The notes under the pieces: generated by a model
What the model was told of the DNA's origin: nothing
The model's database searches: none
What the model saw: only the letters and a program-made list of their open reading frames with translations
Translations under genes and position numbers: made by a program
Assembly: GCA_021849045.1 (NCBI GenBank)
Contig: JAJZTK010000021.1
Location: 2,819 to 40,599 of the forward strand
Source: Deltaproteobacteria bacterium
Lineage (GTDB): Bacteria; Desulfobacterota; Desulfuromonadia; Geobacterales; DSM-12255
DNA: 37,781 bases
Direction of reading: 5' to 3'
In this document: positions 3 through 34,747 of the stretch, piece by piece
How positions within the stretch are numbered: the first letter of the stretch is position 1
Layout of the letters: every line of letters starts with the position of its first letter

Positions 3-1241
3 GTCGCCAAACCATTCCTCGGTGAAGAGGAAGCTGCCGCAGCGAAGGAAGTGATCCTTTCCGGATGGCTTACGCAAGGCCCCCGCGTCCTGAAGTTCGA
101 GCAAGACTTTGCCTCCTGTGTCGGCTCACCGTTCGCCTGTGCCGTGTCAAGCTGCACGACGGCCCTGCATCTTGCCCTCCTTGCGGCAGGCGTGGCTCCG
201 GGAGACGTCGTCATCACGGTGAGCCACTCGTTCATCGCGACGGCCAACTCGATCCGTTACTGTTTCGCCGAACCGGTCTTTGTAGATATCGATCCGGATA
301 CCTTCAACATGTCGCCGGAAAGCCTGCGGCATTGCCTGGACGAACGATGCGAGAGCCGAGAGGGAAAGCTCTATTATCGAGACATCGCCGGACTCGCCGT
401 CGGAGAATCTCCCCTGTGCACCTTCGTCGAAGGAGGAATATCTTCAACAAGGCGTGCCATAGGAAGAGTGGCCGCAATCGTACCGGTCCATCAAGTGGGA
501 ATGCCTTGCGACCTGAATGCAATCCTTTCCCTTGCGCAAGAGTTTAACCTCCCCGTGATCGAAGATGCGGCCTGCGCTATCGGGAGCGAAATTAATCTTG
601 CCGGGAGCTGGGAACGAATCGGCAAACCTCACGGAGACATTGCCTGTTTTTCGTTTCATCCCCGCAAGATCGTCGCCACCGGTGACGGGGGGATGATTAC
701 GACGAAGAATCCTGAATACGACCGGAAATTTCGCCTTCTGAGGCAACACGGAATGTCGGTGCCTGATACGGTCAGGCACAGCGCCAGCCAGGTGATATTT
801 GAAGATTACGTGACCACCGGATTCAACTACCGGATGACGGACGTTCAGGCGGCAATAGGGATAGAGCAGCTTAAAAAACTGCCGTCACTATTGGAGGAAA
901 GGAGACAGTTGGCGGCCTTGTATGACGAAATGCTGAAAGATATCAGCTGGCTGGATACCCCGAGAGAGGCGCCGTACTGCAGAACGAACTGGCAGAGCTA
1001 TCCGGCGAGGGTCAGAGACGGCGCACCGGTGAGCCGGGACAAGCTCATGCAGCATCTGCTCGATTTGGGAATCTCGACTCGCCGGGGGATCATGAATGCC
1101 CACCAGGAGCCTGCGTACGCTGCAATGTGCCCGCTGCCGCATTCTGAACTGGCAAGGGACTCCGTGGTGCTTCTGCCACTCTTCAACGGGATGAAAGAGA
1201 GTGAGGTGGAAACGGTTACGAAAGGAATCGCCAATGTCTAA
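3..1241 (+). CDS. DegT/DnrJ/EryC1/StrS-family sugar aminotransferase (5' partial)
   Basis: PLP-dependent aminotransferase of the DegT family, which transaminates keto-sugar nucleotides to amino sugars in the cytoplasm. The frame is open from base 3 and encodes VAKPFLGEEE before the GTG at 51, a typical family N-terminus, so the true start lies upstream of the window. Counting from the GTG, the PLP-binding lysine is K206 in SFHPRKIVATGDGG and the cofactor-ring aspartate is D172 in VIEDAACAIGS. The gene overlaps the next one by 8 bases, and an aminotransferase next to a NeuD/PglD-like acetyltransferase suggests synthesis of an N-acylated amino sugar, as in bacillosamine-type pathways. The exact substrate cannot be read from the sequence. 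Confidence 0.9.
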   Translation, partial: VAKPFLGEEEAAAAKEVILSGWLTQGPRVLKFEQDFASCVGSPFACAVSSCTTALHLALLAAGVAPGDVVITVSHSFIATANSIRYCFAEPVFVDIDPDTFNMSPESLRHCLDERCESREGKLYYRDIAGLAVGESPLCTFVEGGISSTRRAIGRVAAIVPVHQVGMPCDLNAILSLAQEFNLPVIEDAACAIGSEINLAGSWERIGKPHGDIACFSFHPRKIVATGDGGMITTKNPEYDRKFRLLRQHGMSVPDTVRHSASQVIFEDYVTTGFNYRMTDVQAAIGIEQLKKLPSLLEERRQLAALYDEMLKDISWLDTPREAPYCRTNWQSYPARVRDGAPVSRDKLMQHLLDLGISTRRGIMNAHQEPAYAAMCPLPHSELARDSVVLLPLFNGMKESEVETVTKGIANV

Positions 1242-2073: not shown

Positions 2074-4086
2074 ATGGTAATGACCTTGTTCAAGAGACTT
2101 ATGATACTCACGACGTTATTGGCTGTCGTGGGAGTGGCATTATTCATATACCGGAAAGGTATGGGGGGTATTGTTGGAAAACCCACGTCATACGGCGCGT
2201 TCAGTTCGGCTGACAAGGCAGGCGATCAGGAAAACCTTGGTAGTAGTGCCGTCATGGTTTCGCACCGTCTTCCTCGCCCGGTTCTTATCATTTCATCCGT
2301 GTCGAATCCGTTCACCCATTACTATGCCGAGATTCTGCGCGCCGAAGGTTTGAACGCATTTGACGAGACCGACATAGCATCGGTAACAACTGCAGCGCTC
2401 GCTTCTTACGATGTGGTCATCCTGGGAGAGATGCCTTTGTCAACATCCCAGTCCCACATGATCAGCAGGTGGGTCAACAAGGGGGGACATTTAATCTCCA
2501 TGCGCCCCGACAAGAAGCTTGCCGGCCTGCTCGGCCTGACCGACCTCTCTTCGTCTCTTTCGGACGCGTATCTGCTGGTGGACACCTCCTCCGGTGCCGG
2601 TTCGGGGATCGTGGGAGAGACGATTCAGTTCCATGGTACGGTAGATCTTTACTCTCTCAACGGTGCATCAACTATTGCGACACTATGCTCCAATGCCGTG
2701 ACTAAAACCTCCCACCCGGCCGTAACCCTGAAAAGCGTCGGCAATAGGGGTGGTATGGCGGCCGCATTCGCATACGACCTTGCCCGTTCGGTCATCCTGA
2801 CACGCCAGGGAAATCCGGCTTGGGCGGGACAGGAGAGAGACGGTTATCCACCAATTCGTTCCAATGACATGTTCACTGGCGCCATGAACGTTCCCTCCCG
2901 TTCGGACTGGGTTGATCCCGACAAGATTGCGATTCCCCAGGCCGATGAGCAGCAGCGTCTTCTTGCAAACCTCATCATTCGGATGAACTACGACAAGAAG
3001 CCCTTGCCCAGGTTCTGGTACTTTCCCCGCGGCTTGAAGGCGGTCGTGATCATGACCGGGGACGACCATGGAAACGGGGGGACCGCCGGAAGATTCGATG
3101 CGTACCAGGCCATGAGCCCTCCCGGTTGTTCTGTCGAGGACTGGGAGTGCATCAGAGGCACTTCATACCTCTTCCCGGAAACCCCGCTTGGCAATGCTCA
3201 GGCTTCCGCTTACAGCAACGCCGGTTTCGAGGTAGCCCCCCATCTCAATACCAACTGCGCCGACTGGACCCCTTCCTCTTTGAGGTCCCTGTTCTCGGAC
3301 CAATTCAGCGATTGGAGCGAAAAATACTCTTCCTCTCCCCGTCCCGTTACGCTTCGCGTGCATTGTATTACCTGGAGCGATTACTCAACCATGCCCAAGG
3401 TTGAACGGAGCCATGGAATCAGGCTCGATACAAACTACTATTATTGGCCTGCCGACTGGGTAAGAAATCGCGCCGGCCTTTTCACCGGCTCCGGTATCCC
3501 CATGAGGTTTGCCGACGATAAAGGCAATCTCATCGATGTCTACCAGGCTGTAACTCAAATGACCGATGAGTCGGGCCAGGCATATCCCTTTACCATCGAT
3601 GCGCTGCTCGACAGGGCGATCGGGGCTGAAGGGTACTATGGAGCCTTCGTGGCCAATATGCACACCGATCGGGTTGTTTCGGACGGCTCCACTGCAATTG
3701 TACGGTCTGCCCTGGCCCGGAGGGTTCCCGTGATATCAGCCCGCCAATTGCTGGGATGGCTGGATGGCCGTAATGCTTCGTCATTTGATTCGGTAACATG
3801 GAAAGGGAATACCCTCAGTCTGTCGATTACAGCCGCCAAAGGTGCCCGCGGGCTTGTGACCATGGTGCCGGTGGCACGCGGGCATACTGTCACCGGCGTT
3901 ACGTCCGGCGGCAGGGAGTTGCACTTCACAATTACGGTAATCAAAGGGGTCAAGTATGCATTATTTCCGACGAGAACCGGAAAATACGAGGTTCGGTACG
4001 CATCGCAATCGACCCCTTCGCATCGTTCATTACCGCCTTCGCGACCCACTTCATCGGTATTGATGACATATCTTCAGGGAGTATGA
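2074..4086 (+). CDS. Membrane-anchored ThuA-like/polysaccharide deacetylase-like protein
   Basis: A 670-residue protein with one N-terminal hydrophobic segment (about residues 7-26), so probably anchored with its bulk outside the cytoplasm. Residues about 69-316 look like a flavodoxin/ThuA-type alpha/beta domain (VLIISSVSNPF, DVVILGEMPL). Residues about 317-640 resemble a NodB-type deacetylase: D330-D331-H332 in VIMTGDDHG matches the catalytic/metal motif 1, but motif 2 is HLNTNC rather than the usual HTxxH. The whole module is repeated in the next gene (residues about 986-1562 there) with clear DNA similarity, so the two are paralogues from a local duplication. A role in modifying the exported polysaccharide is inferred; activity is uncertain because of the changed motif. 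An ATG at 2080 is an alternative start. Confidence 0.65.
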   Translation: MVMTLFKRLMILTTLLAVVGVALFIYRKGMGGIVGKPTSYGAFSSADKAGDQENLGSSAVMVSHRLPRPVLIISSVSNPFTHYYAEILRAEGLNAFDETDIASVTTAALASYDVVILGEMPLSTSQSHMISRWVNKGGHLISMRPDKKLAGLLGLTDLSSSLSDAYLLVDTSSGAGSGIVGETIQFHGTVDLYSLNGASTIATLCSNAVTKTSHPAVTLKSVGNRGGMAAAFAYDLARSVILTRQGNPAWAGQERDGYPPIRSNDMFTGAMNVPSRSDWVDPDKIAIPQADEQQRLLANLIIRMNYDKKPLPRFWYFPRGLKAVVIMTGDDHGNGGTAGRFDAYQAMSPPGCSVEDWECIRGTSYLFPETPLGNAQASAYSNAGFEVAPHLNTNCADWTPSSLRSLFSDQFSDWSEKYSSSPRPVTLRVHCITWSDYSTMPKVERSHGIRLDTNYYYWPADWVRNRAGLFTGSGIPMRFADDKGNLIDVYQAVTQMTDESGQAYPFTIDALLDRAIGAEGYYGAFVANMHTDRVVSDGSTAIVRSALARRVPVISARQLLGWLDGRNASSFDSVTWKGNTLSLSITAAKGARGLVTMVPVARGHTVTGVTSGGRELHFTITVIKGVKYALFPTRTGKYEVRYASQSTPSHRSLPPSRPTSSVLMTYLQGV

Positions 4087-4203
4087 ACCAATCATTTGCC
4101 TGGATGGAATTTTATGCAGAACGGTTTTGCTGTCACGCAAGAAATTGATAATGGGCTGCTTCCATGTCCTGTGTGCAATGAGTAGAAGTGAGCGGAGGGA
4201 ATA

Positions 4204-7200
4204 ATGAAAACCACTCCAATTGGCAGGCTCTCGGCAGGTTTGACAATTTTTTTCGTCATGATTGGTATCGCCCTGATCTTTCCGATGGAAGGGCGAAGCT
4301 CGTGCACTGCGCCGTCCAATGTTATTGAGTCCGAGAATTGCAAGCCGGGAAACCCTGCCGGCGAGTGGGACATTTCCGGCGCGGGCGACCCGAGCATCCA
4401 GGGGTTCGCCACGGACATCAGCGTCAACAAGGGAGAGACCGTTCATTTCAAGATCCAGACGGATGTGGGCAGTTACCGTCTGGATATCTACCGGATAGGC
4501 TACTATGGTGGCAGTGGTGCCCGCAAGGTGGCAACGGTTCAGCCCTCTGCAGTTTTGCCCCAGGCCCAGCCCGCATGCGTCAACGACAGCACAACCAAGC
4601 TTACCGACTGCGGCAACTGGGCCGAATCGGCCTCTTGGACGGTTCCTGCGGATGCCGTCACGGGAGTCTACGTCGCGAAGCTCGTCCGCTCGGACACCGG
4701 CGGAGCGAGCCACATCATCTTCATTGTCCGGGACGACTCCGGAAACGCCGACCTTCTGTTCAAAACCTCCGATACCACCTGGCAGGCCTATAACAGTTAC
4801 GGCCTCGGTTATATCGAATACCCCGACTACGGCTATCCCACCCAAAAGGCCTCCAAGGCCAGCTATAACCGCCCATTCCTGACCCGTCAGATTAATGATG
4901 GCCTTGGAGCCTATAACTGGTTCTTCCAGGCAGAATACCCCATGATCCGCTGGCTTGAGGCCAACGGCTACAACGTCAGTTATTTTACTTCTGTCGATGC
5001 CGACCGTCGCGGGGGCGACATCCTCAAACACAAGGTCTACCTCTCGGTCGGTCATGACGAATACTGGTCCGGCCAGGAGCGCGCAAACGTGGAGGCGGCC
5101 CGGAATGCAGGCATCAACGTGGCCTTCTTCGGCGGTAACGAAATCTACCGCAAGATCCGTTGGGAAAATGCCATTGATGGCTCCGGTACGCCGTATCGGA
5201 CGATGGTCTGCTATAACGAGAGTAACGCACCCACCCCGATAGATCCCGCCGATCCCCCGATTTGGACCGGAACCTGGCGTAATCCGCGTTTCAGCCCACC
5301 GGCTGATGGTGGTCGCCCGGAGAATGCCCTGAGCGGAACCTTCTTCACAGTGTCGGAAGGGCCAAATCCTCTCGGCATTTCCCTTGAGGTGCCGCAGGCA
5401 AACGGCAGGATGCGATTCTGGAGAAACACTCCCGTGGCATCGCTTGCTGCAGGACAAAAGGCCGTTCTTGGTGACCGTGTGGTCGGCTATGAATTCGATG
5501 AGGATATCGACAACGGTTATCGCCCAGCCGGCCTCGTGCAACTGTCGTCAACCACAACAGCAGTAAACGAAAAGCTCCTGGGGGACAACGTCAATATCGG
5601 CGCCGACATCTATCTGCCCGGGACGGCGACCCATGCTATGACCCTCTATCGGGCCCCGAGTAAGGCACTGGTCTTTTCAGCCGGAACGGTGCATTGGTCC
5701 TGGGGCCTCGACGGCCAGCACGACAATGGGCCGTCGGTTCCCGATCCGAGCATGCAGCAGGCCACGGTGAACATCCTCGCCGACATGGGGGCACAGCCCG
5801 CAACCCTGCAATCGGGGCTGGTCATTGCAACTCCTTCTGCCGATCAAGTTTCCCCGGTTTCTGTAATAACCTCGCCGCCACCCGGTTCCTCACTGCAGGT
5901 GAATAGCCCCGTAACGATCACCGGTACCGCCACTGACAGTGGTGGAGGGGTGGTGGGAGGAGTCGAGGTTTCGACCGACGGAGGAGTGACCTGGCACCCG
6001 GCAATGGGTCGCGGGAACTGGAGCTACACCTGGATTCCGACCGGTACCGGTAATGTCACCATCCTGAGCAGGGCGGTCGACGATAGCGGCAATCTGGAGA
6101 CCCCCTCTTCGGGGGTGAGTGTTACCGTCACCGGCATCCCGAGCTTCACCCTCTGGACTGGCACGACTGTGCCTGGGACCGTGGATTCCGGGCCGGACAG
6201 TGCGGTGGAGCTGGGGGTGAAGTTTCGCTCCGACTCCAACGGCTACATAACCGGTATCCGCTTTTACAAGGCGAGCACCAACACCGGAACGCACGTGGCG
6301 AACCTCTGGACGAGCAGCGGTACACGGCTGGCCACGGTCACCTTTGCCAACGAGAGCGCCTCCGGCTGGCAGCAGGTGAACTTCCCGACGCCGGTTGCGA
6401 TCACCGCCAACACGGTCTACGTGGCCTCGTACCATGCCAATGCGGGGCACTACAGCGATGACCAGAACTATTTTGCGACCGCGACGGATACTCCGCCGCT
6501 CCACGCCCTGGCCGACGGGGTGTCCGGAGCCAACGGCGTATATGCCTACGGCACCACAAGCAGTTTCCCCAGTCTGGGATGGCGCAGCTCCAACTACTGG
6601 GTGGACGTCGCCTTTACCACGGCCCTACCGACACTCTCCTCCATCGCGGTGACGCCGGTGAACCGGACGATCTCGACTGGGACCACGCAGCAGTTCACCG
6701 CCAGCGGCACTTACTCCGATGGCAGCACCCAGGACCTGAGCGCCCAGGCAACGTGGGTTTCTTCGAGCACGGGCGTGGCCACCATCGGCAGCTCCGGTCT
6801 TGCGACGGCAGTCAATCCCGGCAGCACCACCATCTCGGCGACGCTTGGCGGCATCACCGGCAGCACGACCCTGACCGTTCAGGCGACCCCCCTGGCGATC
6901 ACGACAGCGTCACTTTCCGGCGGCACGCAGGGGATCCCGTACTCGGCCACCGTGGCTGCCAGCGGCGGAATCCTGCCCTACACCTGGTCGATCTCCGGCG
7001 GTTCGCTGCCGACGGGGCTCACGCTCAACAGCACCACCGGGGTCATCTCCGGAACCCCCACGGCAACCGGTACCTTCAGCTTTACCGTCGGCGTTGCCGA
7101 TTCGTCCAGTCCTCCACAGAACAGTACACGGTCTCTGAGTATAGCCATCAACGCGGGAGCGCCAATTCTGATCATCTCATCCGCCTCGAACTCCTTCAGC

Positions 7201-9720
7201 CGTTATTATCCTGAGATTCTCCGGACCGAAGGCTTCAACGAGCTTGATGAGGTTGACATCTCTACACTATCTTCGACGGTGCTGGATTCGCATGACATAG
7301 TCATCCTGGGCGAAATGCCGCTGACTTCAAGCCAGGTTACCATGCTTGCCAACTGGGTTAGTGCCGGAGGGCACCTGATTGCCATGCGTCCTGACAAAAA
7401 ACTCGCCGGGCTGCTTGGCCTGACAGACTTGTCCTCTACGCTATCAAACGGATACCTCCTGGTAAACACATCATCCGGTGCCGGCGTAGGGATCGTGAAC
7501 CAGACGATGCAGTATCACGGCACGGCTGACCGTTACAGTCTCAACGGTGCCGCAAGTCTTGCCACTCTTTACTCAAGCTCCACGACAGCGACTTCCAGCC
7601 CCGCAGTAACCCTTCAAAATGCCGGAACTATGGGTGGCCGGGCGGCGGCATTTACCTATGATCTGGCTCGGTCGGTGGTCTACACGAGGCAGGGGAATCC
7701 CGCTTGGGCGGGGCAGCATAGAGACGGCAACTCGGTGATCCGCTCCGATGACCTTTTCTATGGCGCCGCCAGCTTCGATCCCCAGCCCGACTGGGTCGAC
7801 CTGGGCAAGGTGGCGATTCCCCAGGCGGACGAGCAGCAGCGCCTGCTGGTAAACCTCGTCATACAGATGAACTCTGACAAGAAGCCCTTGCCCCGCTTCT
7901 GGTACTTCCCGCGCAATCTGGCGGCAGCCGTGGTCATGACTGGTGACGATCATGGGGGAGGGGGAACCGTCGGGCGGTTTGATGCGTACCTGTCGAAGAG
8001 CCCTTCCGGCTGTTCGGTGAACAATTGGGAGTGCATCAGGAGCACGTCGTACATTTACACCGATACCCCGCTGACAGACTCCCAGGCAGCTACTTATGTC
8101 GCCAACGGCTTCGAGGTGGGCCTCCACGTAAATACCGACTGTGCCGACTGGACACCATCATCGCTTGAATCTTATTTCTCCAGTCAGTTGAGCTCCTGGA
8201 GCGCGAAGTACGCCAGTCTGCCGGCTCCGGCTACAAATCGCGTCCACTGCATTCCATGGAGCGATTATGCAACCATGCCAAAAGTGGAGCTGAATCATGG
8301 AATACGCCTCGATACCGACTATTACTATTGGCCTGACAGCTGGGTCGCCAATCGTCCCGGCTTCTTCACCGGTTCCGGCATCCCCATGCGGTTTGCCGAC
8401 TCAACCGGTGCTCTCATCGATGTGTATCAGGCCCCCACCCAGATGACTGACGAGTCAGGGCAGACCTATCCATTTACCATCGATACGCTGCTCGACCAAG
8501 CCGTCGGACCTGAAGGGTACTACGGTGCCTTCGTAGCCAACATGCACACCGATGTGGCGGCATCGAGCGGGTCGGATGCCATTATACAGTCAGCACAGTC
8601 CCGCGGCGTACCGGTGATTTCTGCGAGACAGCTGCTGGAATGGCTTGATGGACGGAATGCATCAACGTTCAGTTCGCTTTCCTGGGACGGAATTACACTG
8701 GGTTTTTCTGCCACTGCTGCCCCAGGCGCGGATGGCCTGGTGGCCATGGTACCGGTGGCACCTAATCAGACCGTGACGAGTGTCACGAGAAATGGAGGGG
8801 CGATTCCCTTTACGATTGCGGTTCTGAAGGGAGTGCAGTATGCCCGCTTCCCGGCAGTTACCGGCGATTACCGGGTCAGCTTTGCTGCCGATGTCACGCC
8901 ACCCGCAATCAGCGGGGTTGTCCCCGCAAGTGGCGCTACCGGCGTCAGCACGGGGACAGCGGTAACCGTTACCTTCAGCGAGGCAATGGATCCTGCCTCG
9001 ATCAATGCAAATACCATCGAACTGCGGGACCCCTTGAATGTGCAAGTACCGGCAACGGTTTCCTACAACGCAATGGCGCAGACGGCTACTCTTCTTCCGG
9101 CTGCTCCGCTGGCGAATTCGAAGGTCTACACAGCCATCATCCGTGGGGGAATTGGCGGAGTCAAAGACCTTGCCGGCAATCCCCTCGCCAACGATTATTC
9201 CTGGTCATTCACTACCGCATCCGTGTCAACCGGCCCGTTCTCCATCTGGCCCGGCACAACGGTTCCCGTGGTGATCGATTCAGGCCCCGACAGTCCTGTG
9301 GAGCTCGGTGTGAAGTTCCGCGCCGACACGAACGGGTTCATCACCGGTATCCGCTTCTACAAGGCGAGCACCAACACCGGAACGCACGTGGCCAACCTCT
9401 GGACGAGCAGCGGAACTCTCCTGGCCACGGCTACCTTTGCCAACGAAACCGCCTCCGGCTGGCAGCAGGTGAACTTTACGACGCCGGTGGCCATCACCGC
9501 CAACACGGTCTATCTAGCCTCTTACCACACCAATTCCGGCCATTATAGTGATGATTTGTACTACTTCTCGGGCAAAGGAGTGGATACTCCGCCGCTCCAT
9601 GCCCCAGCCGACGGGGCATCGGGCTTCAACGGCGTGTATGCCTACGGGTCCACCAGCAGCTTTCCCAACCAGGGGTGGAACAGTTCCAACTACTGGGTGG
9701 ATGTGGTGTTTCAGCAGTAA
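4204..9720 (+). CDS. Large exported multidomain protein (DMFase-beta-like, Ig, DUF4082, deacetylase-like)
   Basis: An 1838-residue secreted mosaic with a hydrophobic N-terminus (about residues 10-28) and a GGAGGG ribosome site before the ATG. Domains by eye: residues about 50-540 resemble the C-terminal domain of N,N-dimethylformamidase beta subunit (SYRLDIYRIGYYGG, VGHDEYWSGQER); 547-644 Ig-like; 647-805 DUF4082 (ELGVKFRSDSNGYITGIRF); 809-895 Big_2-like; 897-982 putative-Ig (PYTWSISGGSLPTGL); 986-1232 ThuA-like; 1233-1562 deacetylase-like with D1248-D1249-H1250 and HVNTDC; 1563-1675 Big_5-like; 1677-1837 a second DUF4082. The architecture suggests an extracellular or surface protein acting on or binding the polysaccharide made by the surrounding operon. 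The true reaction is unknown. It follows its paralogue after 117 bases. Confidence 0.75.
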   Translation: MKTTPIGRLSAGLTIFFVMIGIALIFPMEGRSSCTAPSNVIESENCKPGNPAGEWDISGAGDPSIQGFATDISVNKGETVHFKIQTDVGSYRLDIYRIGYYGGSGARKVATVQPSAVLPQAQPACVNDSTTKLTDCGNWAESASWTVPADAVTGVYVAKLVRSDTGGASHIIFIVRDDSGNADLLFKTSDTTWQAYNSYGLGYIEYPDYGYPTQKASKASYNRPFLTRQINDGLGAYNWFFQAEYPMIRWLEANGYNVSYFTSVDADRRGGDILKHKVYLSVGHDEYWSGQERANVEAARNAGINVAFFGGNEIYRKIRWENAIDGSGTPYRTMVCYNESNAPTPIDPADPPIWTGTWRNPRFSPPADGGRPENALSGTFFTVSEGPNPLGISLEVPQANGRMRFWRNTPVASLAAGQKAVLGDRVVGYEFDEDIDNGYRPAGLVQLSSTTTAVNEKLLGDNVNIGADIYLPGTATHAMTLYRAPSKALVFSAGTVHWSWGLDGQHDNGPSVPDPSMQQATVNILADMGAQPATLQSGLVIATPSADQVSPVSVITSPPPGSSLQVNSPVTITGTATDSGGGVVGGVEVSTDGGVTWHPAMGRGNWSYTWIPTGTGNVTILSRAVDDSGNLETPSSGVSVTVTGIPSFTLWTGTTVPGTVDSGPDSAVELGVKFRSDSNGYITGIRFYKASTNTGTHVANLWTSSGTRLATVTFANESASGWQQVNFPTPVAITANTVYVASYHANAGHYSDDQNYFATATDTPPLHALADGVSGANGVYAYGTTSSFPSLGWRSSNYWVDVAFTTALPTLSSIAVTPVNRTISTGTTQQFTASGTYSDGSTQDLSAQATWVSSSTGVATIGSSGLATAVNPGSTTISATLGGITGSTTLTVQATPLAITTASLSGGTQGIPYSATVAASGGILPYTWSISGGSLPTGLTLNSTTGVISGTPTATGTFSFTVGVADSSSPPQNSTRSLSIAINAGAPILIISSASNSFSRYYPEILRTEGFNELDEVDISTLSSTVLDSHDIVILGEMPLTSSQVTMLANWVSAGGHLIAMRPDKKLAGLLGLTDLSSTLSNGYLLVNTSSGAGVGIVNQTMQYHGTADRYSLNGAASLATLYSSSTTATSSPAVTLQNAGTMGGRAAAFTYDLARSVVYTRQGNPAWAGQHRDGNSVIRSDDLFYGAASFDPQPDWVDLGKVAIPQADEQQRLLVNLVIQMNSDKKPLPRFWYFPRNLAAAVVMTGDDHGGGGTVGRFDAYLSKSPSGCSVNNWECIRSTSYIYTDTPLTDSQAATYVANGFEVGLHVNTDCADWTPSSLESYFSSQLSSWSAKYASLPAPATNRVHCIPWSDYATMPKVELNHGIRLDTDYYYWPDSWVANRPGFFTGSGIPMRFADSTGALIDVYQAPTQMTDESGQTYPFTIDTLLDQAVGPEGYYGAFVANMHTDVAASSGSDAIIQSAQSRGVPVISARQLLEWLDGRNASTFSSLSWDGITLGFSATAAPGADGLVAMVPVAPNQTVTSVTRNGGAIPFTIAVLKGVQYARFPAVTGDYRVSFAADVTPPAISGVVPASGATGVSTGTAVTVTFSEAMDPASINANTIELRDPLNVQVPATVSYNAMAQTATLLPAAPLANSKVYTAIIRGGIGGVKDLAGNPLANDYSWSFTTASVSTGPFSIWPGTTVPVVIDSGPDSPVELGVKFRADTNGFITGIRFYKASTNTGTHVANLWTSSGTLLATATFANETASGWQQVNFTTPVAITANTVYLASYHTNSGHYSDDLYYFSGKGVDTPPLHAPADGASGFNGVYAYGSTSSFPNQGWNSSNYWVDVVFQQ
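6140..6620 (+). repeat. DUF4082 DNA repeat, copy 1 of 3
   Basis: This segment of the 1838-residue gene is closely similar at DNA level to 9235-9717 (same gene) and 34255-34744 (riboswitch-controlled gene 25 kb away). All share CTTxTACAAGGCGAGCA and AACCTCTGGACGAGCA stretches. Conservation of synonymous sites suggests recent copying or gene conversion between distant loci. Confidence 0.85.
9235..9717 (+). repeat. DUF4082 DNA repeat, copy 2 of 3
   Basis: The 3' end of the 1838-residue gene; same segment as described at 6140-6620, sharing long identical stretches with it and with the copy at 34255. Confidence 0.85.
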
Positions 9721-16107: not shown

Positions 16108-16941
16108 ATGGCAAAAACAGACAAGATAAAAATCGCGATACTTCTCTTGTTATGGGCAGCGGTTTTCTGTCCGATCTGCCCGGAACTTGTTCACGACTGG
16201 TTCGGTCATTCCGACAATTCCCACGCGATTCTCGTACCGTTCATTTCGTTGTTCTTCGTCTGGCAGCGTAAGAATGAACTGCAGTCAACGCCCATTGACG
16301 GTTCTGCCTGGGGAGCTATCATCCTTGGGGCCAGCCTGCTCGCATATATTGCGAGTTATGGGGGCGGATTAGCTTTCCCGGCGAGGGTTGCCATGGTCAC
16401 TTCCCTGTTCGGGCTTGTCTGGTTCTGCCTTGGAAGCCGTTTTGTCCGTATTCTCGCCTTCCCGATAGCTTTCCTGCTCTTCATGATCCCGGTACCGGAC
16501 TCCCTGATGAGCCTTGTAACCTTGCCTCTGCAACTCATGGCGACCCGAATTTCCGCAGACCTTATCGGGAACTGTTCTATCCCGGTCTACCGTGAAGGGA
16601 ACATGCTCTATTTCGTGGGAACTCAGCTCGAAGTTGCCGAGGCGTGCAGTGGCATAAGGTCGATCATGTCGTTAACGATGCTAAGTCTTGTCTTCTGCTA
16701 TTTGTCCCGGGAAAGATGGTGGAAGAAAGCTTTTCTCGTGGCGGCGGCAATCCCAATCGCCATCTTGGCCAATATTGTTCGGGTGACTGGGACTGGAATC
16801 CTGGCCAACTATTACGGAGACAAGGTGGCCAAGGGATTTCTTCACGAATTTTCAGGGATTGTAATATTTGCGTTTGGCTTTGCACTGCTGTTTGCGTTGT
16901 TCGCCTTTATGAACAGGAAAAAGGCTAATGATATCCGGTAA
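16108..16941 (+). CDS. Exosortase (EpsH family)
   Basis: A 277-residue polytopic membrane cysteine transpeptidase-like protein that recognises C-terminal PEP-CTERM sorting signals. The family's conserved triad is all present: C180 in EACSGIRS, R225 in NIVRVTG and H246 in HEFSG, each at the edge of a hydrophobic segment. About eight membrane segments can be drawn. The gene starts 3 bases after the preceding stop and overlaps the EpsI gene by 14 bases. The neighbouring FemAB-like and O-ligase genes resemble those of exosortase A systems, but the subtype is not assigned. A likely substrate is encoded at 27946-28542 within this window. Confidence 0.93.
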   Translation: MAKTDKIKIAILLLLWAAVFCPICPELVHDWFGHSDNSHAILVPFISLFFVWQRKNELQSTPIDGSAWGAIILGASLLAYIASYGGGLAFPARVAMVTSLFGLVWFCLGSRFVRILAFPIAFLLFMIPVPDSLMSLVTLPLQLMATRISADLIGNCSIPVYREGNMLYFVGTQLEVAEACSGIRSIMSLTMLSLVFCYLSRERWWKKAFLVAAAIPIAILANIVRVTGTGILANYYGDKVAKGFLHEFSGIVIFAFGFALLFALFAFMNRKKANDIR

Positions 16942-17581
16942 GTCATTTCTCGTATCACTTGTGTGCATGCTTGTCGCACTGCTGGCAGTGGGATTCATCT
17001 CCCAACGTCCCGAACCGGTTGTCGTTCGGACGAATCTCGAAAATCTGCCGATGGGAATAGCCGGTTACAGGGGGACGGAAGACGCTTTCCCGGAATCGGT
17101 GTATCGCGAACTCAATGCAGACAAGCATGTGTACCGGCATTACCGGTCCGGAGACGGCAGTCAGCTCGATCTGTATATCGGCTATTACGGCACGGCCAAA
17201 GGCGGTCGGACCGGCCACAATCCCTATGCGTGTCTGCCCGGTGCCGGATGGGCAATAGTCGATTCGAGGAAGGTCCGAATCCGGTACCCCTCCCAATCTT
17301 CGGATGTTGAGGTAAACTATGTACAGGCCCGCAGGAATGGAGTCAATACCGTGATGGTTCACTGGTACCAGACCGCGGGCACGACGGTGATGTCGACGGG
17401 AATCCGGCAGAACATCGAAAGGTTTTGGGGCCGCCTGCTCCACAATCGGAATGACGGCACTTTTGTGCAGATTTCGACCCAGGTTCCTGATGACCGTGTG
17501 GTGGATGCTGAGGCCAAGGTAGAGGATTTTGCGGGACAGGTTATTCGGCTTCTTCCCGGTTTCTGGCCGGTTGAGAAGTAG
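16928..17581 (+). CDS. epsI: EpsI family protein
   Basis: A 217-residue exosortase partner protein. It has one N-terminal membrane segment (about residues 7-25, LVSLVCMLVALLAVGF) and the family hallmark GHNPYACLPGAGW followed by the MVHWYQT strand. EpsI is usually encoded directly after, or fused to, an exosortase and is needed for exopolysaccharide production, though its biochemical role is not established. The ATG at 16928 lies inside the exosortase gene, indicating translational coupling. The protein would be anchored in the inner membrane with its main domain in the periplasm. Confidence 0.92.
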   Translation: MISGKSFLVSLVCMLVALLAVGFISQRPEPVVVRTNLENLPMGIAGYRGTEDAFPESVYRELNADKHVYRHYRSGDGSQLDLYIGYYGTAKGGRTGHNPYACLPGAGWAIVDSRKVRIRYPSQSSDVEVNYVQARRNGVNTVMVHWYQTAGTTVMSTGIRQNIERFWGRLLHNRNDGTFVQISTQVPDDRVVDAEAKVEDFAGQVIRLLPGFWPVEK

Positions 17582-27892: not shown

Positions 27893-27945
27893 TTGGGAAA
27901 TTGGCAATAACGACTTTTTGAACCAGCATGCAGAGGAGTCCATTT

Positions 27946-28542
27946 ATGAAAAAGCCAACGACCCTGATCGCCACTGCTGCATTGCTTTTGTTGACCACAG
28001 GCATTGCCAGGGCAATACTGATCGACATCAACAATTCGAGCGGCCATGTCATTTACGATGACGTAAATAACCAGTACTGGGCCTGGGACCTGACGGCATT
28101 TTCGAACCAGACCTATCAGCAACAATTGGCCACGATTCAAACCGATTACGACGACTCGGCCTATTTCGGCATTACCAACTGGCACCTGGCCAGTTTCGCA
28201 GAAATGGTGGGCCTGTTGGCCGGGCCGAATCAGGCTTATCTAAACCTGTTCAATCCCACCAAGCAGCAGGATACCCCAGTTCCAGTTTGGAGTGGTCGGT
28301 ATGATTTGGCCTTAAATCCCGGAATGCATTATGGTGGTGTTTATTACGTCCCGTTTCCCGGCTACAATGGTGTCAATGTGGAGAGGCTAGATTCGCTGTT
28401 CATCTCTGACAGCACTTCGCTTTCGACGTATGGTGCCTGGGTCACGGCCTCGGCACCGGTCCCTGAGCCTGCCACTTTGCTGCTGCTGGGAACCGGCATT
28501 GCGGGGATGGCAGGGATGCGCATTTTCAGGAGGAAAACGTAG
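27946..28542 (+). CDS. PEP-CTERM sorting-signal protein
   Basis: A 198-residue secreted protein with a signal peptide (MKKPTTLIATAALLLLTTG, cleavage near ARA) and a textbook PEP-CTERM tail: VPEPATLLLLG, a hydrophobic segment and the basic end RIFRRKT (residues about 172-198). The ATG at 27946 follows a GAGGAG site; an ATG 18 bases earlier is less likely. The middle part (DINNSSGHVIYDDVNNQYWAWDL) is not one I can assign to a named enzyme family. It is the only visible substrate for the exosortase encoded at 16108 and would be processed at the inner membrane and then exported or attached to the matrix. A strong terminator follows. Confidence 0.9.
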   Translation: MKKPTTLIATAALLLLTTGIARAILIDINNSSGHVIYDDVNNQYWAWDLTAFSNQTYQQQLATIQTDYDDSAYFGITNWHLASFAEMVGLLAGPNQAYLNLFNPTKQQDTPVPVWSGRYDLALNPGMHYGGVYYVPFPGYNGVNVERLDSLFISDSTSLSTYGAWVTASAPVPEPATLLLLGTGIAGMAGMRIFRRKT

Positions 28543-31468: not shown

Positions 31469-31516
31469 GTTCCTCCATTGGTCTGTTGTACGACGGAGGG
31501 CTGTTTCTTTTTTTTT
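31462..31516 (+). terminator. Terminator T2 sharing a strand with aptamer P1
   Basis: GAAACAG (31462-31468) plus CCTCC (31472-31476) pairs with GGAGG (31495-31499) plus CTGTTTC (31501-31507), then nine T residues (31508-31516). The GAAACAG strand is also the 3' side of P1, and the 3' terminator arm repeats the P1 5' sequence CTGTTTC exactly. Ligand-stabilised P1 would block the terminator. Confidence 0.9.
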
Positions 31517-31585
31517 GCTCGCGAAGCGTGTCGAAGCGATCAAAGAAAAAGGCAATCACAACCAAACATCCAAAGGAGCCAGTTT

Positions 31586-34500
31586 ATGAAACCCCGAATT
31601 TTCAAAACACTACTATTTACTTGGTTACTCGGTATTGCTAGTGTTTCTGTCAGCCATGCAAGAGACGTGACCTTGCAGTGGAATGCCAGTACGGACCCCT
31701 CCGTGGCAGGTTACAAAGTCTATTACAATGCCGACTCTGCAGTCACACCTTTCAAGGGGACAGGAGCGGTCCAAGGTCCGGCACCGGTAGATGCCAAGAA
31801 GGTGACAAGTGCCACCTTGAACGGACTTGACCCCAACCGGTCCTACTATTTTGCGGTTACCGCCTACAACGCCTCGGGAACGGAGAGCTCTTATTCCAAC
31901 GTCGCCAACGTCCTTGAAGCGGTCGCGCCCACGGTTTCGATCACATCTCCCGCCTCAAGTACCTCGGCAAGTGGAACGGTTTCGGTCACCGCCAGCGCCA
32001 CCGACAATGTCGGGGTGACGAAAGTAGAGTTCTATGTGAACGGTGCCCTCGCCGCCACCGACACGTCGACGCCGTACGTATATTCGTGGAACACCACTAC
32101 GCTCACATCCGGGGCATATACACTGATGACCAAGGCGTACGATGCGGCCGGCAACGTTGGGCAGTCGAGCAACGTATCCGTAACGGTCGTGAATGACAAA
32201 ACCGCACCCACGGTATCCCTGACGGCACCCGGCAGCGGCGCCACGGTGGGCGGAACGACGACCTTGACCGCCAGCGCCAGCGACAACGTCGGGGTGACCA
32301 AGGTCGAGTTTTACGTAAACGGAGCGCTATTGAGCGCGACAAACGTTGCCCCGTACAGCTACAGCTGGAATACGACTGCGCTAACAAACGGTGCTTACAC
32401 TCTGACTGCGAAGGCGTACGACAACGCCGGCAACGTGGGGCAATCCGCAAGTATACCGGTGACGGTCAACAATATCGTGGCGGATACCACCAAACCGACC
32501 GTTTCCGTGACCGCTCCGGCCAACAACGCCACCGTCAGCGGGACCGCGTCAATTTCCGCCAGCGCCAGCGACAACGTCGGGGTGACCAAGGTCGAGCTCT
32601 ACGTAAACGGCGCATTGCAAGCCACTGATACCGCATCCCCCTACACTTTCAGTTGGAACACGACAGCGGTTGCCAACGGCAGCTATACCCTGAGCGCCAA
32701 GGCCTACGATGCAGCCGGCAACGTCGGTCAGTCGGCCAATGCAAGCGTCACCGTCAACAATGCGACAACGCCGCCACCGTCGGGGAGCACCACTGCCATT
32801 TTCGGCAACAGCTTCGGCGCAACCAACCCCAACACGATCGAAGATACCTTCATCAACATCAACAGCGACATCAACGCGGCAAATACGGCCCTCAACACCT
32901 ACACCTGGCCGGCGAACACCCCGGCCAACGCGATCCTGATGAAGTGGGACCTCTCGGCCCTGCCGGCCAGCGCCCAGATCCAGAGCGCCACCCTCTACCT
33001 CTACCAGACGGGGAGCGGCGGCGACAGCTCGTACGCGATGCCGGTGTCCGAGGTGATCAACAAGACCCCGGTCATCTCTAAAACCACCGGCTATACCTAC
33101 GATGGGACCAACGCCTGGACGGCGAGCAGCATCCCCTACGGTGGCATCCCCCTGGCACAGTCCGACATCGCCGCCGCCGTCGATACCCCGCTTGTCGACG
33201 CGACCCTTGGGTACAAGAGCTGGAACGTGACGAACATCGTCAAGGGCTGGGTGGCGAACCCGGGGAACAACCGGGGTCTGCTGCTGGACTCCTCGAACAA
33301 GGCCACGGCGGACAGCTACCGTACCTTCGCCTCCAGCGAGGCCGCCGACACCAACCAGAGGCCGAAACTCGTGGTGACCTATACCCTGGCGCCGGCCTCT
33401 GACACCACGGCACCCACGGTTGCGATCACCGCTCCGGCCAACAGTGCAACGGTAAGCGGATCCCAGACCATTACCGCATCTGCCACCGACAACGTCGGGG
33501 TAGCCAAGGTGGAGTTCTACGTGAACGGGGCACTGAAAGCCACCGACACCGCCGCTCCCTATACCTTCAGCTGGAACACGACCAGCGTGGCAAACGGCGC
33601 CTACACCCTCACCGCCAAGGCGTACGACGCGGCGGGCAATGTGGGGCAATCCTCAATAGTCTCCGTCACGGTTAATAATGACACCACGCTACCTGTCGTC
33701 TTAATCACCTCGCCGGTGGCCAGCACCACGGTCAGCGGCACCTCTGCTGTCTCCGCTTACGCCAGCGATAATATCGGGGTAGCCAAGGTGGAGTTCTACG
33801 TAAACGGAACACTGCAGGCCACTAGCACCGCCTTACCCTACACTTTCAACTGGAATACGACGGCAGTGGCAAATGGTGCCTACACCCTCACTGCCAAGGC
33901 CTATGACGCAGCAGGGAACGTAGGGCAGTCGACAAATGTTTCGGTGACGGTGAACAATGTTGCGGCAGATACCACGAAACCGACCGTCTCTGTGACCGCT
34001 CCGGCCAGCAACGCCAAGGTCAGCGGGACCGCATCGGTCACCGTGAGCGCCAGCGACAACGTCGGGGTAGCCAAGGTGGAGTTCTACGTGAACGGGGCAC
34101 TGCAGGGAACCGACGCCGCCGCTCCCTATACCTTCAGCTGGAACACGACCGCGGTTGCCGACGGCGCCTACACCCTCACCGCCAAGGCCTATGACGCCGC
34201 TAACAATGTGGGGCAGTCGTCAGCAGTATCGGTCACGGTAAGCAACGCTACCATTCCCTCGACTGTTTCCCTCTGGTCCAGCTCCGTGGTTCCTGGGGTA
34301 GTGGACAGTGGGCCTGACAGCCCCGTGGAGCTGGGGGTCAAATTCCGCTCCGACGTAAGCGGCTATATTACCGGCATCCGCTTCTACAAGGCGAGCACCA
34401 ACACCGGTACCCATGTGGCCAACCTCTGGACGAGCACCGGCACCAAGCTGGCCACTGCTACCTTCACCAACGAGACTGCCTCCGGGTGGCAGCAGGTAAA

Positions 34501-34747
34501 CTTCTCAACTCCGGTGGCCATTAGCGCCAACACGGTCTACGTGGCTTCCTACCACACCAACGCGGGCCACTACAGTGACGATCAGTATTACTTCTCTGGT
34601 AAAGGTAGGGACAATGCGCCGCTCCACGCCCTGGCCGACGGGGTTTCCGGTGTCAATGGCGTGTACGCCTATGGCAACACCAGCAACTTCCCCAACCAGG
34701 GCTGGAACAGCTCCAATTACTGGGTAGATGTGGTCTTTAAACCTTGA
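31586..34747 (+). CDS. Secreted FN3/Ig-like/DNRLRE/DUF4082 protein
   Basis: A 1053-residue exported protein. The ATG at 31586 follows an AAAGGAG site; the apparent 36-codon extension from a TTG at 31478 lies across terminator T2 and is rejected. Signal peptide: LLFTWLLGIASVSVSHA. Domains: FN3 (about 25-112, YYFAVTAYNASGTESSYSNV), three Ig-like Big_7-type repeats (115-393, DNVGVTKVEFYVNGAL), a DNRLRE-type domain (399-605, LMKWDLSALPASAQIQSATL), three more Ig repeats (607-886) and a C-terminal DUF4082 (890-1053). All are typical of extracellular carbohydrate- or surface-binding proteins. The gene's leader carries two tandem riboswitches, and its first about 200 residues resemble those of the gene at 35258, consistent with duplication of leader plus 5' gene. 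Confidence 0.85.
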   Translation: MKPRIFKTLLFTWLLGIASVSVSHARDVTLQWNASTDPSVAGYKVYYNADSAVTPFKGTGAVQGPAPVDAKKVTSATLNGLDPNRSYYFAVTAYNASGTESSYSNVANVLEAVAPTVSITSPASSTSASGTVSVTASATDNVGVTKVEFYVNGALAATDTSTPYVYSWNTTTLTSGAYTLMTKAYDAAGNVGQSSNVSVTVVNDKTAPTVSLTAPGSGATVGGTTTLTASASDNVGVTKVEFYVNGALLSATNVAPYSYSWNTTALTNGAYTLTAKAYDNAGNVGQSASIPVTVNNIVADTTKPTVSVTAPANNATVSGTASISASASDNVGVTKVELYVNGALQATDTASPYTFSWNTTAVANGSYTLSAKAYDAAGNVGQSANASVTVNNATTPPPSGSTTAIFGNSFGATNPNTIEDTFININSDINAANTALNTYTWPANTPANAILMKWDLSALPASAQIQSATLYLYQTGSGGDSSYAMPVSEVINKTPVISKTTGYTYDGTNAWTASSIPYGGIPLAQSDIAAAVDTPLVDATLGYKSWNVTNIVKGWVANPGNNRGLLLDSSNKATADSYRTFASSEAADTNQRPKLVVTYTLAPASDTTAPTVAITAPANSATVSGSQTITASATDNVGVAKVEFYVNGALKATDTAAPYTFSWNTTSVANGAYTLTAKAYDAAGNVGQSSIVSVTVNNDTTLPVVLITSPVASTTVSGTSAVSAYASDNIGVAKVEFYVNGTLQATSTALPYTFNWNTTAVANGAYTLTAKAYDAAGNVGQSTNVSVTVNNVAADTTKPTVSVTAPASNAKVSGTASVTVSASDNVGVAKVEFYVNGALQGTDAAAPYTFSWNTTAVADGAYTLTAKAYDAANNVGQSSAVSVTVSNATIPSTVSLWSSSVVPGVVDSGPDSPVELGVKFRSDVSGYITGIRFYKASTNTGTHVANLWTSTGTKLATATFTNETASGWQQVNFSTPVAISANTVYVASYHTNAGHYSDDQYYFSGKGRDNAPLHALADGVSGVNGVYAYGNTSNFPNQGWNSSNYWVDVVFKP
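31935..34240 (+). repeat. Six intragenic Ig-like repeats with high DNA similarity
   Basis: Six units of about 275 bases, three before and three after the DNRLRE domain. Each holds a near-constant segment such as GACAACGTCGGGGT followed by GTxGAGTTCTACGT (near 32005, 32283, 32570, 33488, 33768 and 34055) and AAGGCxTACGA. Strong DNA conservation suggests recent expansion or gene conversion and copy-number instability. Confidence 0.85.
34255..34744 (+). repeat. DUF4082 DNA repeat, copy 3 of 3
   Basis: The 3' end of the riboswitch-controlled FN3/Ig gene. Compared with 9235-9717, it keeps the final GGCTGGAACAGCTCCAA-type stretch almost intact, linking the exopolysaccharide cluster and the matrix island by sequence exchange. 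Confidence 0.85.

Follow-up and report, generated by a model that had tools for sequence, protein, structure and literature searches.

A conserved NodB-like module without the second metal-binding histidine as a putative polysaccharide de-N-acylase in a Geobacterales exosortase locus

Introduction

In the carbohydrate esterase (CE) families CE4 and CE18, the first aspartate of motif 1 acts as the catalytic base and is held in place by an arginine, the second aspartate and two histidines hold a metal, and the histidine of motif 5 acts as the acid, as described in the available parts of PMC5855634, PMC10967932 and PMC7229062. In CE4, the tyrosine that follows the proline of motif 3 provides a backbone nitrogen for the oxyanion hole. 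Here we describe a protein module that occurs twice in a 37,781-nucleotide stretch of DNA (the window) from a Deltaproteobacteria bacterium of the order Geobacterales (assembly GCA_021849045.1, contig JAJZTK010000021.1, positions 2,819 to 40,599 of the forward strand). The module is predicted to consist of a ThuA/GATase1-like domain, a NodB-like barrel and a C-terminal beta-rich domain, and its barrel has no second histidine in motif 2. Based on structure models and on analogy with the fungal enzyme Agd3, we think it probable that this is an exported enzyme that removes N-acyl groups, most likely N-acetyl groups, from a polysaccharide, with an Agd3-like build and a non-canonical metal site.

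Results

The module is found in two open reading frames of the window, both on the plus strand. The first (2074-4086) encodes P0001, a protein of 670 aa in which a stand-alone copy of the three-domain module comes after an N-terminal hydrophobic stretch; judged from its sequence, this stretch resembles a membrane anchor. The second (4204-9720) encodes P0002, a protein of 1838 aa with the whole module at 7144-8910. The two proteins align by BLASTP with 65% identity over 622 columns (794 bits, E 0.0), which is far past chance. The original prediction had described a duplicated module at 2280-4000 and 7160-8880 with high DNA and protein similarity. A codon alignment of 2260-4026 with 7144-8910 (589 codons) gave 66.9% protein identity, in agreement with that description, and 67.5% DNA identity, for which "high" is somewhat generous; an ungapped DNA repeat finder detected 75% identity over 300 nt between the copies. 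The proportions of differing synonymous and nonsynonymous sites (pS and pN) were 0.68 and 0.21, and the corresponding rates (dS and dN) 1.7, near saturation, and 0.25. Thus, the pair is old and under purifying selection, and we rejected a recent duplication because dS is near saturation. In a tree of 85 rows, both copies fell into a supported set of 12 rows whose remaining members are Geobacteraceae. By path distance the row nearest to copy 1 is copy 2, the row nearest to copy 2 is a Geobacter row (L019), and the tree does not resolve the branching that separates them. An older duplication inside this lineage may account for the pair, consistent with copy 2 being the row nearest to copy 1.

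The whole-module model of copy 1 (m1b1c3f35c4f8; mean predicted local distance difference test score, pLDDT, 95; predicted template modelling score 0.94) shows an alpha/beta domain, then a barrel, then a beta-rich end. The first domain (model residues 1-250; 2260-3009) was matched by the structure comparison VIA to the GATase1-like protein 3rht (Z 18.2) and the ThuA-like protein 4jqs (Z 17.5). The barrel (residues 250-507; 3007-3780) matched the deacetylases 3rxz (Z 17.8) and HpPgdA 3qbu (Z 17.2), and the beta-rich domain (residues 508-585; 3781-4014) was delimited by DSSP. Superposition of the whole module on Agd3 (6nwz) covered 456 residues, with model positions 5..583 on chain positions 146..803, at Z 17.4 and an rmsd of 9.9. 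This superposition is loose, as the rmsd indicates, and together with the DSSP assignment it places in the module the domain order of CE18 proteins, CBM87-like, esterase and beta-rich. The highest Z scores for the whole module were to glycoside hydrolases (6tvk, 20.6; 5xb7, 20.2), which probably arise through the ThuA-like domain of those enzymes. A fold search of BFVD returned nine matches at E<=0.001, all with a TM-score to the model of at most 0.27.

The barrel of copy 2 (7891-8664) was modelled separately (m6e2422a11a52, pLDDT 92.6). At E<=0.001, Foldseek matched it to eight chains from five entries, all of deacetylase type, led by 3s6o (2.8e-6), 3rxz (3.0e-6) and CtAxeA 2c71 (1.2e-5). VIA gave Z scores of 18.4 for 3rxz, 18.3 for 1z7a, 18.2 for 3s6o, 18.1 for 3qbu and 16.4 for ArnD; lower values were found for PelA 9cgy (13.9), BoPDA (13.6) and CtAxeA (12.9), with GH57 enzymes intermixed at 13.5-14.5. 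Agd3 was absent among the 50 VIA rows listed for the barrel alone, though it may still match further down. Predicted structures, VIA and Foldseek thus bear out the ThuA-like and deacetylase-like folds that had been proposed from the letters of the DNA, and the secondary structure of the models agrees with a NodB barrel.

We counted residue conservation in an alignment (A2) of 79 rows, for which both copies from the window were joined by 77 out of 78 listed loci. The window's own sequence among these (L010) was left out, the rhizobial and Falsirhodobacter rows lie outside the counts, and the rows are not independent, as some loci are paralogues or near-identical. Residues are numbered as in P0001, with the model number, which is lower by 62, in brackets. 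Motif 1 reads GDDHG in copy 1 (3058-3072) and in copy 2 (7942-7956); D330 (D268) and H332 (H270) are invariant (79/79), and D331 (D269) is Asp in 77 rows and Glu in 2. Motif 2 reads HLNTNC in copy 1 (3241-3258) and HVNTDC in copy 2 (8125-8142), with H390 (H328) and C395 (C333) in 79/79. The slot of the second NodB histidine (model position 332) holds Asn in 35 rows, Gly in 29, Asp in 8, Arg in 3, Thr in 2 and Ser in 2, and His in none. Motif 3 is R-V-H-C in both copies (3355-3366 and 8239-8250), and R428 (R366), H430 (H368) and C431 (C369) are all invariant. The motif-4 aspartate of copy 1, D452 (D390; 3427-3429), is Asp in 77 rows and Asn in 2, and motif 5 is H-T-D in both copies (3661-3669 and 8545-8553), with H530 (H468) and D532 (D470) in every row. 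A Falsirhodobacter protein that is 38-40% identical retains every one of these conserved residues.

The module therefore has the aspartate pair of CE4/NodB motif 1, the aspartate of motif 4 and the histidine of motif 5. It has neither the H(S/T)xxH of motif 2 with its two metal histidines, of which only the first is present, nor the RxP of motif 3, where the arginine is kept and a histidine stands at the place of the proline in all rows. By DSSP (model numbering), strand 261-269 ends with D268 and D269, strand 324-330 contains H328, strand 364-368 contains R366 and H368, the short strand 389-390 contains D390, and H468 comes right after strand 461-466. The motifs thus lie in or directly after successive barrel strands in the NodB order, and strand order and spacing are what equate R-x-H-C with the R-x-P-Y of CE4. 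According to the original prediction both copies keep the DDH of NodB motif 1 and share HxNTxC in place of HTxxH. GDDHG is indeed present twice, but the canonical motif 1 is TFDDG, and the histidine is particular to this module family. The shared deviation holds throughout the alignment as loss of the second metal histidine and presence of the cysteine, but the literal HxNTxC occurs in just 48/79 rows, and the spacing from His to Cys is +5 in 76 rows and +7 in 3.

A second cysteine pair, C290/C297 in model numbering, is present as a pair in 68 rows and absent as a pair in 11, and no row has one cysteine of the two. All 68 barrels with this pair contain exactly four cysteines. This all-or-none occurrence, the count of four and the variable His-Cys spacing suggest disulfide-like behavior. 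From the alignment, a disulfide is more likely than metal ligation for the invariant C395 and C431.

Scanning one genome per species, we confirmed 218 module loci from 243 candidate stretches. The 78 that were listed cover, by their record titles, about ten phyla: Thermodesulfobacteriota, Acidobacteriota, Chloroflexota, Cyanobacteriota, Actinomycetota, Bacteroidota, Verrucomicrobiota, Pseudomonadota, Myxococcota and Peregrinibacteriota. The 77 aligned loci are 54-67% identical to copy 1; a further locus, L157, carries no annotation and was set aside. Plasmid records contributed 29 more (27 Sinorhizobium, 1 Pararhizobium and 1 Falsirhodobacter), in which the module, if annotated at all, is called "Ig-like domain-containing protein" or "hypothetical protein". 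The distribution is patchy: with the window genome counted, the module is in 3 of 58 relatives and in 2 of 297 genomes of the phylum. When 398 genomes of the phylum of another carrier, G351, were scanned with alignment A3, a full-length match was found in G351 alone; three weak partial matches there (E 0.004-0.008, inside positions 181-236) were not taken as members. One module copy (L016) is on a contig binned as Candidatus Peribacteria and clusters with Acidobacteriota rows in the tree, which reflects either transfer or a binning error.

The module family is thus common, and no family library that we searched names it. P0001 matched no Pfam family at E<=1, and in NCBIfam it matched flavodoxin models alone, far under their cut-offs; PADLOC and PHROGs hold no family for the module. 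When all 79 modules were compared with Pfam, the first domain matched DUF4350 in 49, ThuA in 38 and Glyco_hydro_42M in 25 (best 1.6e-6), none over the cut-off in the proteins checked for that, and PF01522 matched one whole module. These results agree with the earlier proposal of a distinct family. Sequence searches of the PDB with P0001 and with alignments A1, A2 and A5 gave nothing meaningful. Two pattern-based scans of viral contigs found no relative, and there was none in phage records. A literature search, in which subscription journals were mostly outside coverage, found no description of the family.

P0002 contains further domains that often accompany the module. In order, a Pfam scan identified a DMFA2_C domain, which is N,N-dimethylformamidase (DMFase)-like (residues 93-506; 4480-5721; 2.7e-99), Ig-like domains, a DUF4082 (6151-6618, alternatively 6145-6615), the module, an Ig-like domain and a second DUF4082 (9259-9699, alternatively 9238-9711); the repeat finder also detected both DUF4082 copies, which share 83% DNA identity over 300 nt. 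A third DUF4082 is at the 3' end of the open reading frame 31478-34747, which encodes an Ig-repeat protein. Among the 78 loci (L010 included), DUF4082 is present in 72 and a DMFase-like domain in 46, either within the module protein itself or at another place on the examined stretch, and DUF4082 may serve these proteins as a common domain for binding or anchoring. The order of the module, the DMFase-like domain and DUF4082 varies, and they are either fused or encoded by adjacent frames (L021, L034, L046, L067 and others); a single frame can reach 4038 codons, as in L067. Compared across the loci, this variation in order reads as domain shuffling.

The DMFA2_C domain of P0002 aligned weakly (E 0.0015) with the dimethylformamidase of Paracoccus, whose iron ligands are Y399, E521 and Y440, with H519 nearby (PMC7686228). 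In an alignment of P0002 with the 47 hits of at least 400 residues, one of which is the window's own L010, the counterparts Y196 (of Y399), E286 (of E521) and H284 (of H519) are each present in 48/48; the Y399 pairing lies on a low-scoring stretch, and no match to Y440 was established. The domain is possibly a second amide hydrolase within a module-bearing protein.

The window is an exosortase/exopolysaccharide locus. It encodes DegT aminotransferases, a hexapeptide-repeat protein, glycosyltransferases, a WbsX-family protein and a Wzy_C (O-antigen ligase) protein, together with the exosortase EpsH (16108-16941, plus strand; Pfam 1.2e-74), EpsI (DUF3485) and a PEP-CTERM protein, which span 16108-17581 and 27928-28542. 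Two proteins resemble polysaccharide lyases, one above the PF14099 cut-off and one just under it. The same locus also contains an ordinary NodB polysaccharide deacetylase of PF01522 (20497-21513). Of the 14 module-bearing genomes, 11 have an exosortase that scored above cut-off, two of these (G348, G352) weakly. In four of the 14 (G000, G015, G030, G352) it is on the same contig as the module, at most about 20 kb away. The module gene of S. meliloti is adjoined by genes for a sugar transferase and a CpsD/CapB kinase, and the Falsirhodobacter gene is likewise beside exopolysaccharide-type genes. PelG, taken as the mark of a pel locus, was over the cut-off in 0 of the 12 module-bearing genomes searched, with one match beneath it (25.2 vs 29 bits). 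The polymer is therefore probably not Pel.

Discussion

We propose that the NodB-like barrel of the module would catalyze the removal of N-acyl groups and that the ThuA/GATase1-like domain probably assists the binding of the sugar chain. By analogy with CE4 and CE18, D330 would be the base, positioned by R428, D331 and H390 would bind a divalent metal, and H530 would be the acid, supported by D452 or D532. D532 may activate H530, as the available text of PMC13254593 proposes for the aspartate after the motif-5 histidine of PelADA. The lost second histidine could be replaced by water, as in the His-Asp dyad of BoPDA, or by a relocated histidine, either H430 at the place of the motif-3 proline or H332 beside the aspartate pair. 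C395 and C431, right after the strands of motifs 2 and 3, would most likely form a disulfide. The enzyme would act outside the cytoplasm on the polymer produced by the exosortase-linked exopolysaccharide locus.

The original prediction inferred from the altered motif 2 that the module has either different metal ligation or a non-deacetylase activity. Judged from the conserved residues, the former is plausible; canonical histidine ligands may be supplied from elsewhere, with the invariant histidine at the motif-3 proline place and the extra invariant motif-1 histidine as candidates, and the sequence is also compatible with a metal held by one motif-2 histidine and one aspartate. Non-deacetylase chemistry does not follow, since NodB enzymes with one metal histidine are known: CtAxeA has activity, and in BoPDA one His and an Asp bind the metal, as described in PMC11713874. 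The other catalytic residues are retained as well. We also considered a broader version of the proposal, in which the module founds a new carbohydrate-esterase family with a moved metal histidine (RxP to RxHC) and a disulfide between motifs 2 and 3 that fixes the pocket, and in which many members, being fused or adjacent to the iron-dependent formamidase-like domain, amount to one exported protein with two amide-hydrolyzing centers tailoring an N-acylated exopolysaccharide. This we regard as somewhat unlikely.

Several results weigh against a polysaccharide de-N-acylase. PF01522 matches 2 of 79 barrels at E<=1, the better at 20.9 bits against a curated cut-off of 23.1, and PF25115 (Agd3_CE) is not among the 24 families matched at E<=1 by the 79 modules or the 17 matched by the 79 barrels. 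PF25115 was also found in 0 of 9 module-bearing genomes, where no control gave a signal; in a different phylum, the same model has hits in 4 of 346 genomes. Profile-profile comparison gave nothing with 4 bacterial CE18 proteins, a small reference set. With CE4 (another small set, the 14 of 34 loci, L092-L125, that passed a motif filter) it gave motif 2 alone at 16% probability, and local and global alignment failed beyond it. In row L009, from S. meliloti, the second motif-1 aspartate (D269 of the model) is replaced by Asn, with the rhizobial rows otherwise fitting the pattern. The 11 barrels without C290/C297 have two (4 barrels), three (5) or four (2) cysteines; with an odd count in five, cysteine parity is imperfect there. 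Seven of the 11 genomes with an exosortase have it on a different contig from the module or, in the case of G350, on the same contig but over 900 kb away from both modules, and no obvious exopolysaccharide genes adjoin the Pararhizobium copy. PuuE allantoinase, a metal-independent enzyme without the second histidine, is equally close by fold (VIA Z 18.1).

This last resemblance raises the alternative of a metal-independent amidohydrolase like PuuE, with an Asp/His set acting on an amide that could be small or part of a polymer. The barrel of PuuE (3cl6) is one of the nearest in fold, and PuuE, as described in PMC10967932, likewise lacks the second motif-2 histidine and the motif-3 proline. The same source describes it as lacking both motif-1 aspartates, which the module family has in 79/79 and 77/79 rows, and the ThuA-like and beta-rich partner domains and the exopolysaccharide locus suggest a polymer, leading us to consider a metal-free enzyme quite improbable. 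Alternatively, the metal could be kept and C395 could bind it with D331 and H390 in an Asp-His-Cys site, which would be compatible with deacetylation. The cysteine is invariant, and in 76/79 rows it sits at +5 from the histidine, which is the position of the second histidine in the H(T/S)x3H of NodB2-type poly-GlcNAc deacetylases (PMC10967932). The spacing of +7 in three rows speaks against a fixed cysteine ligand, however, C431 is equally invariant right after the motif-3 strand, and the other cysteine pair of the domain is disulfide-like, so that we consider a cysteine ligand unlikely.

The module might also be a dead carbohydrate-binding scaffold, a pseudoenzyme retained for binding within large adhesin-like proteins. 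Inactive NodB proteins without metal histidines are known (PMC5855634), the module frame has at least about 1000 codons in most of the 78 loci (about 71, measured stop to stop, some ended by a contig edge), and DUF4082 is in or near that frame in 72. Yet the base, acid, arginine and invariant histidine are retained down to 38-40% identity, whereas dead enzymes usually lose these, and smaller module proteins exist, such as P0001 and the rhizobial and Falsirhodobacter proteins of 725-745 aa. We give this explanation, too, little probability. A de-N-acylase with a non-canonical metal site remains the reading that we prefer.

If the module deacetylates, it adds an exopolysaccharide-modifying enzyme to exosortase/PEP-CTERM loci, and it would offer a natural case in which to learn how NodB enzymes cope with losing a metal ligand. 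To our knowledge, the polymers of such loci are largely uncharacterized. We regard the module family as an undescribed yet recognizable enzyme family, with one motif-2 histidine gone in all aligned relatives, rather than as a new type of machine.

Comparison with known systems places the module near several characterized enzymes. PuuE and ArnD (8t0j) are among the nearest barrels; PuuE differs in being metal-free and without the motif-1 aspartate pair. ArnD deformylates a lipid-linked sugar. The His-Asp dyad CE4 enzymes CtAxeA (2c71) and BoPDA (4dwe) resemble the module in barrel fold, in the absence of the second motif-2 histidine and in retaining the motif-1 aspartate and motif-5 histidine (PMC11713874). 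Unlike the module, BoPDA has its barrel inserted in a carbohydrate-binding module (CBM) and retains the motif-3 proline (AEPN), and the available text of that source mentions no invariant cysteine pair. The N-deacetylase of NDST1 shares with the module a Rossmann-like N-terminal domain and an Agd3-like barrel, but it is an animal enzyme fused to a sulfotransferase and has a canonical His-His-Asp triad (PMC10864358). PelA (CE21; 9cgy; PMC12022489) and Bacillus PelADA (CE26 with CBM114; PMC13254593) are polymer de-N-acetylases. PelA has a NodB-like barrel beside other domains, and PelADA has the Agd3-like order of three domains and an aspartate right after the motif-5 histidine, both as in the module; in contrast to it, both enzymes are described there as retaining two motif-2 histidines, and the Asp-His-His triad and the pel locus that mark their families are absent from the module and from the genomes searched. 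Agd3 from Aspergillus fumigatus (CE18 with CBM87; 6nwz) shares with the module the sequence of domains, from ThuA/GATase1-like through NodB-like barrel to beta-rich C-terminus, as well as an exopolysaccharide setting (PMC7229062). It retains HxxxH, as does each of the 4 bacterial CE18 proteins, and its base-holding arginine comes from far downstream, whereas the module has lost the second histidine and has its arginine at the CE4 motif-3 place. We would not file the module under CE4, CE18, CE21 or CE26, because the defining motifs or profiles of these families fail on it, but it most likely works like their members.

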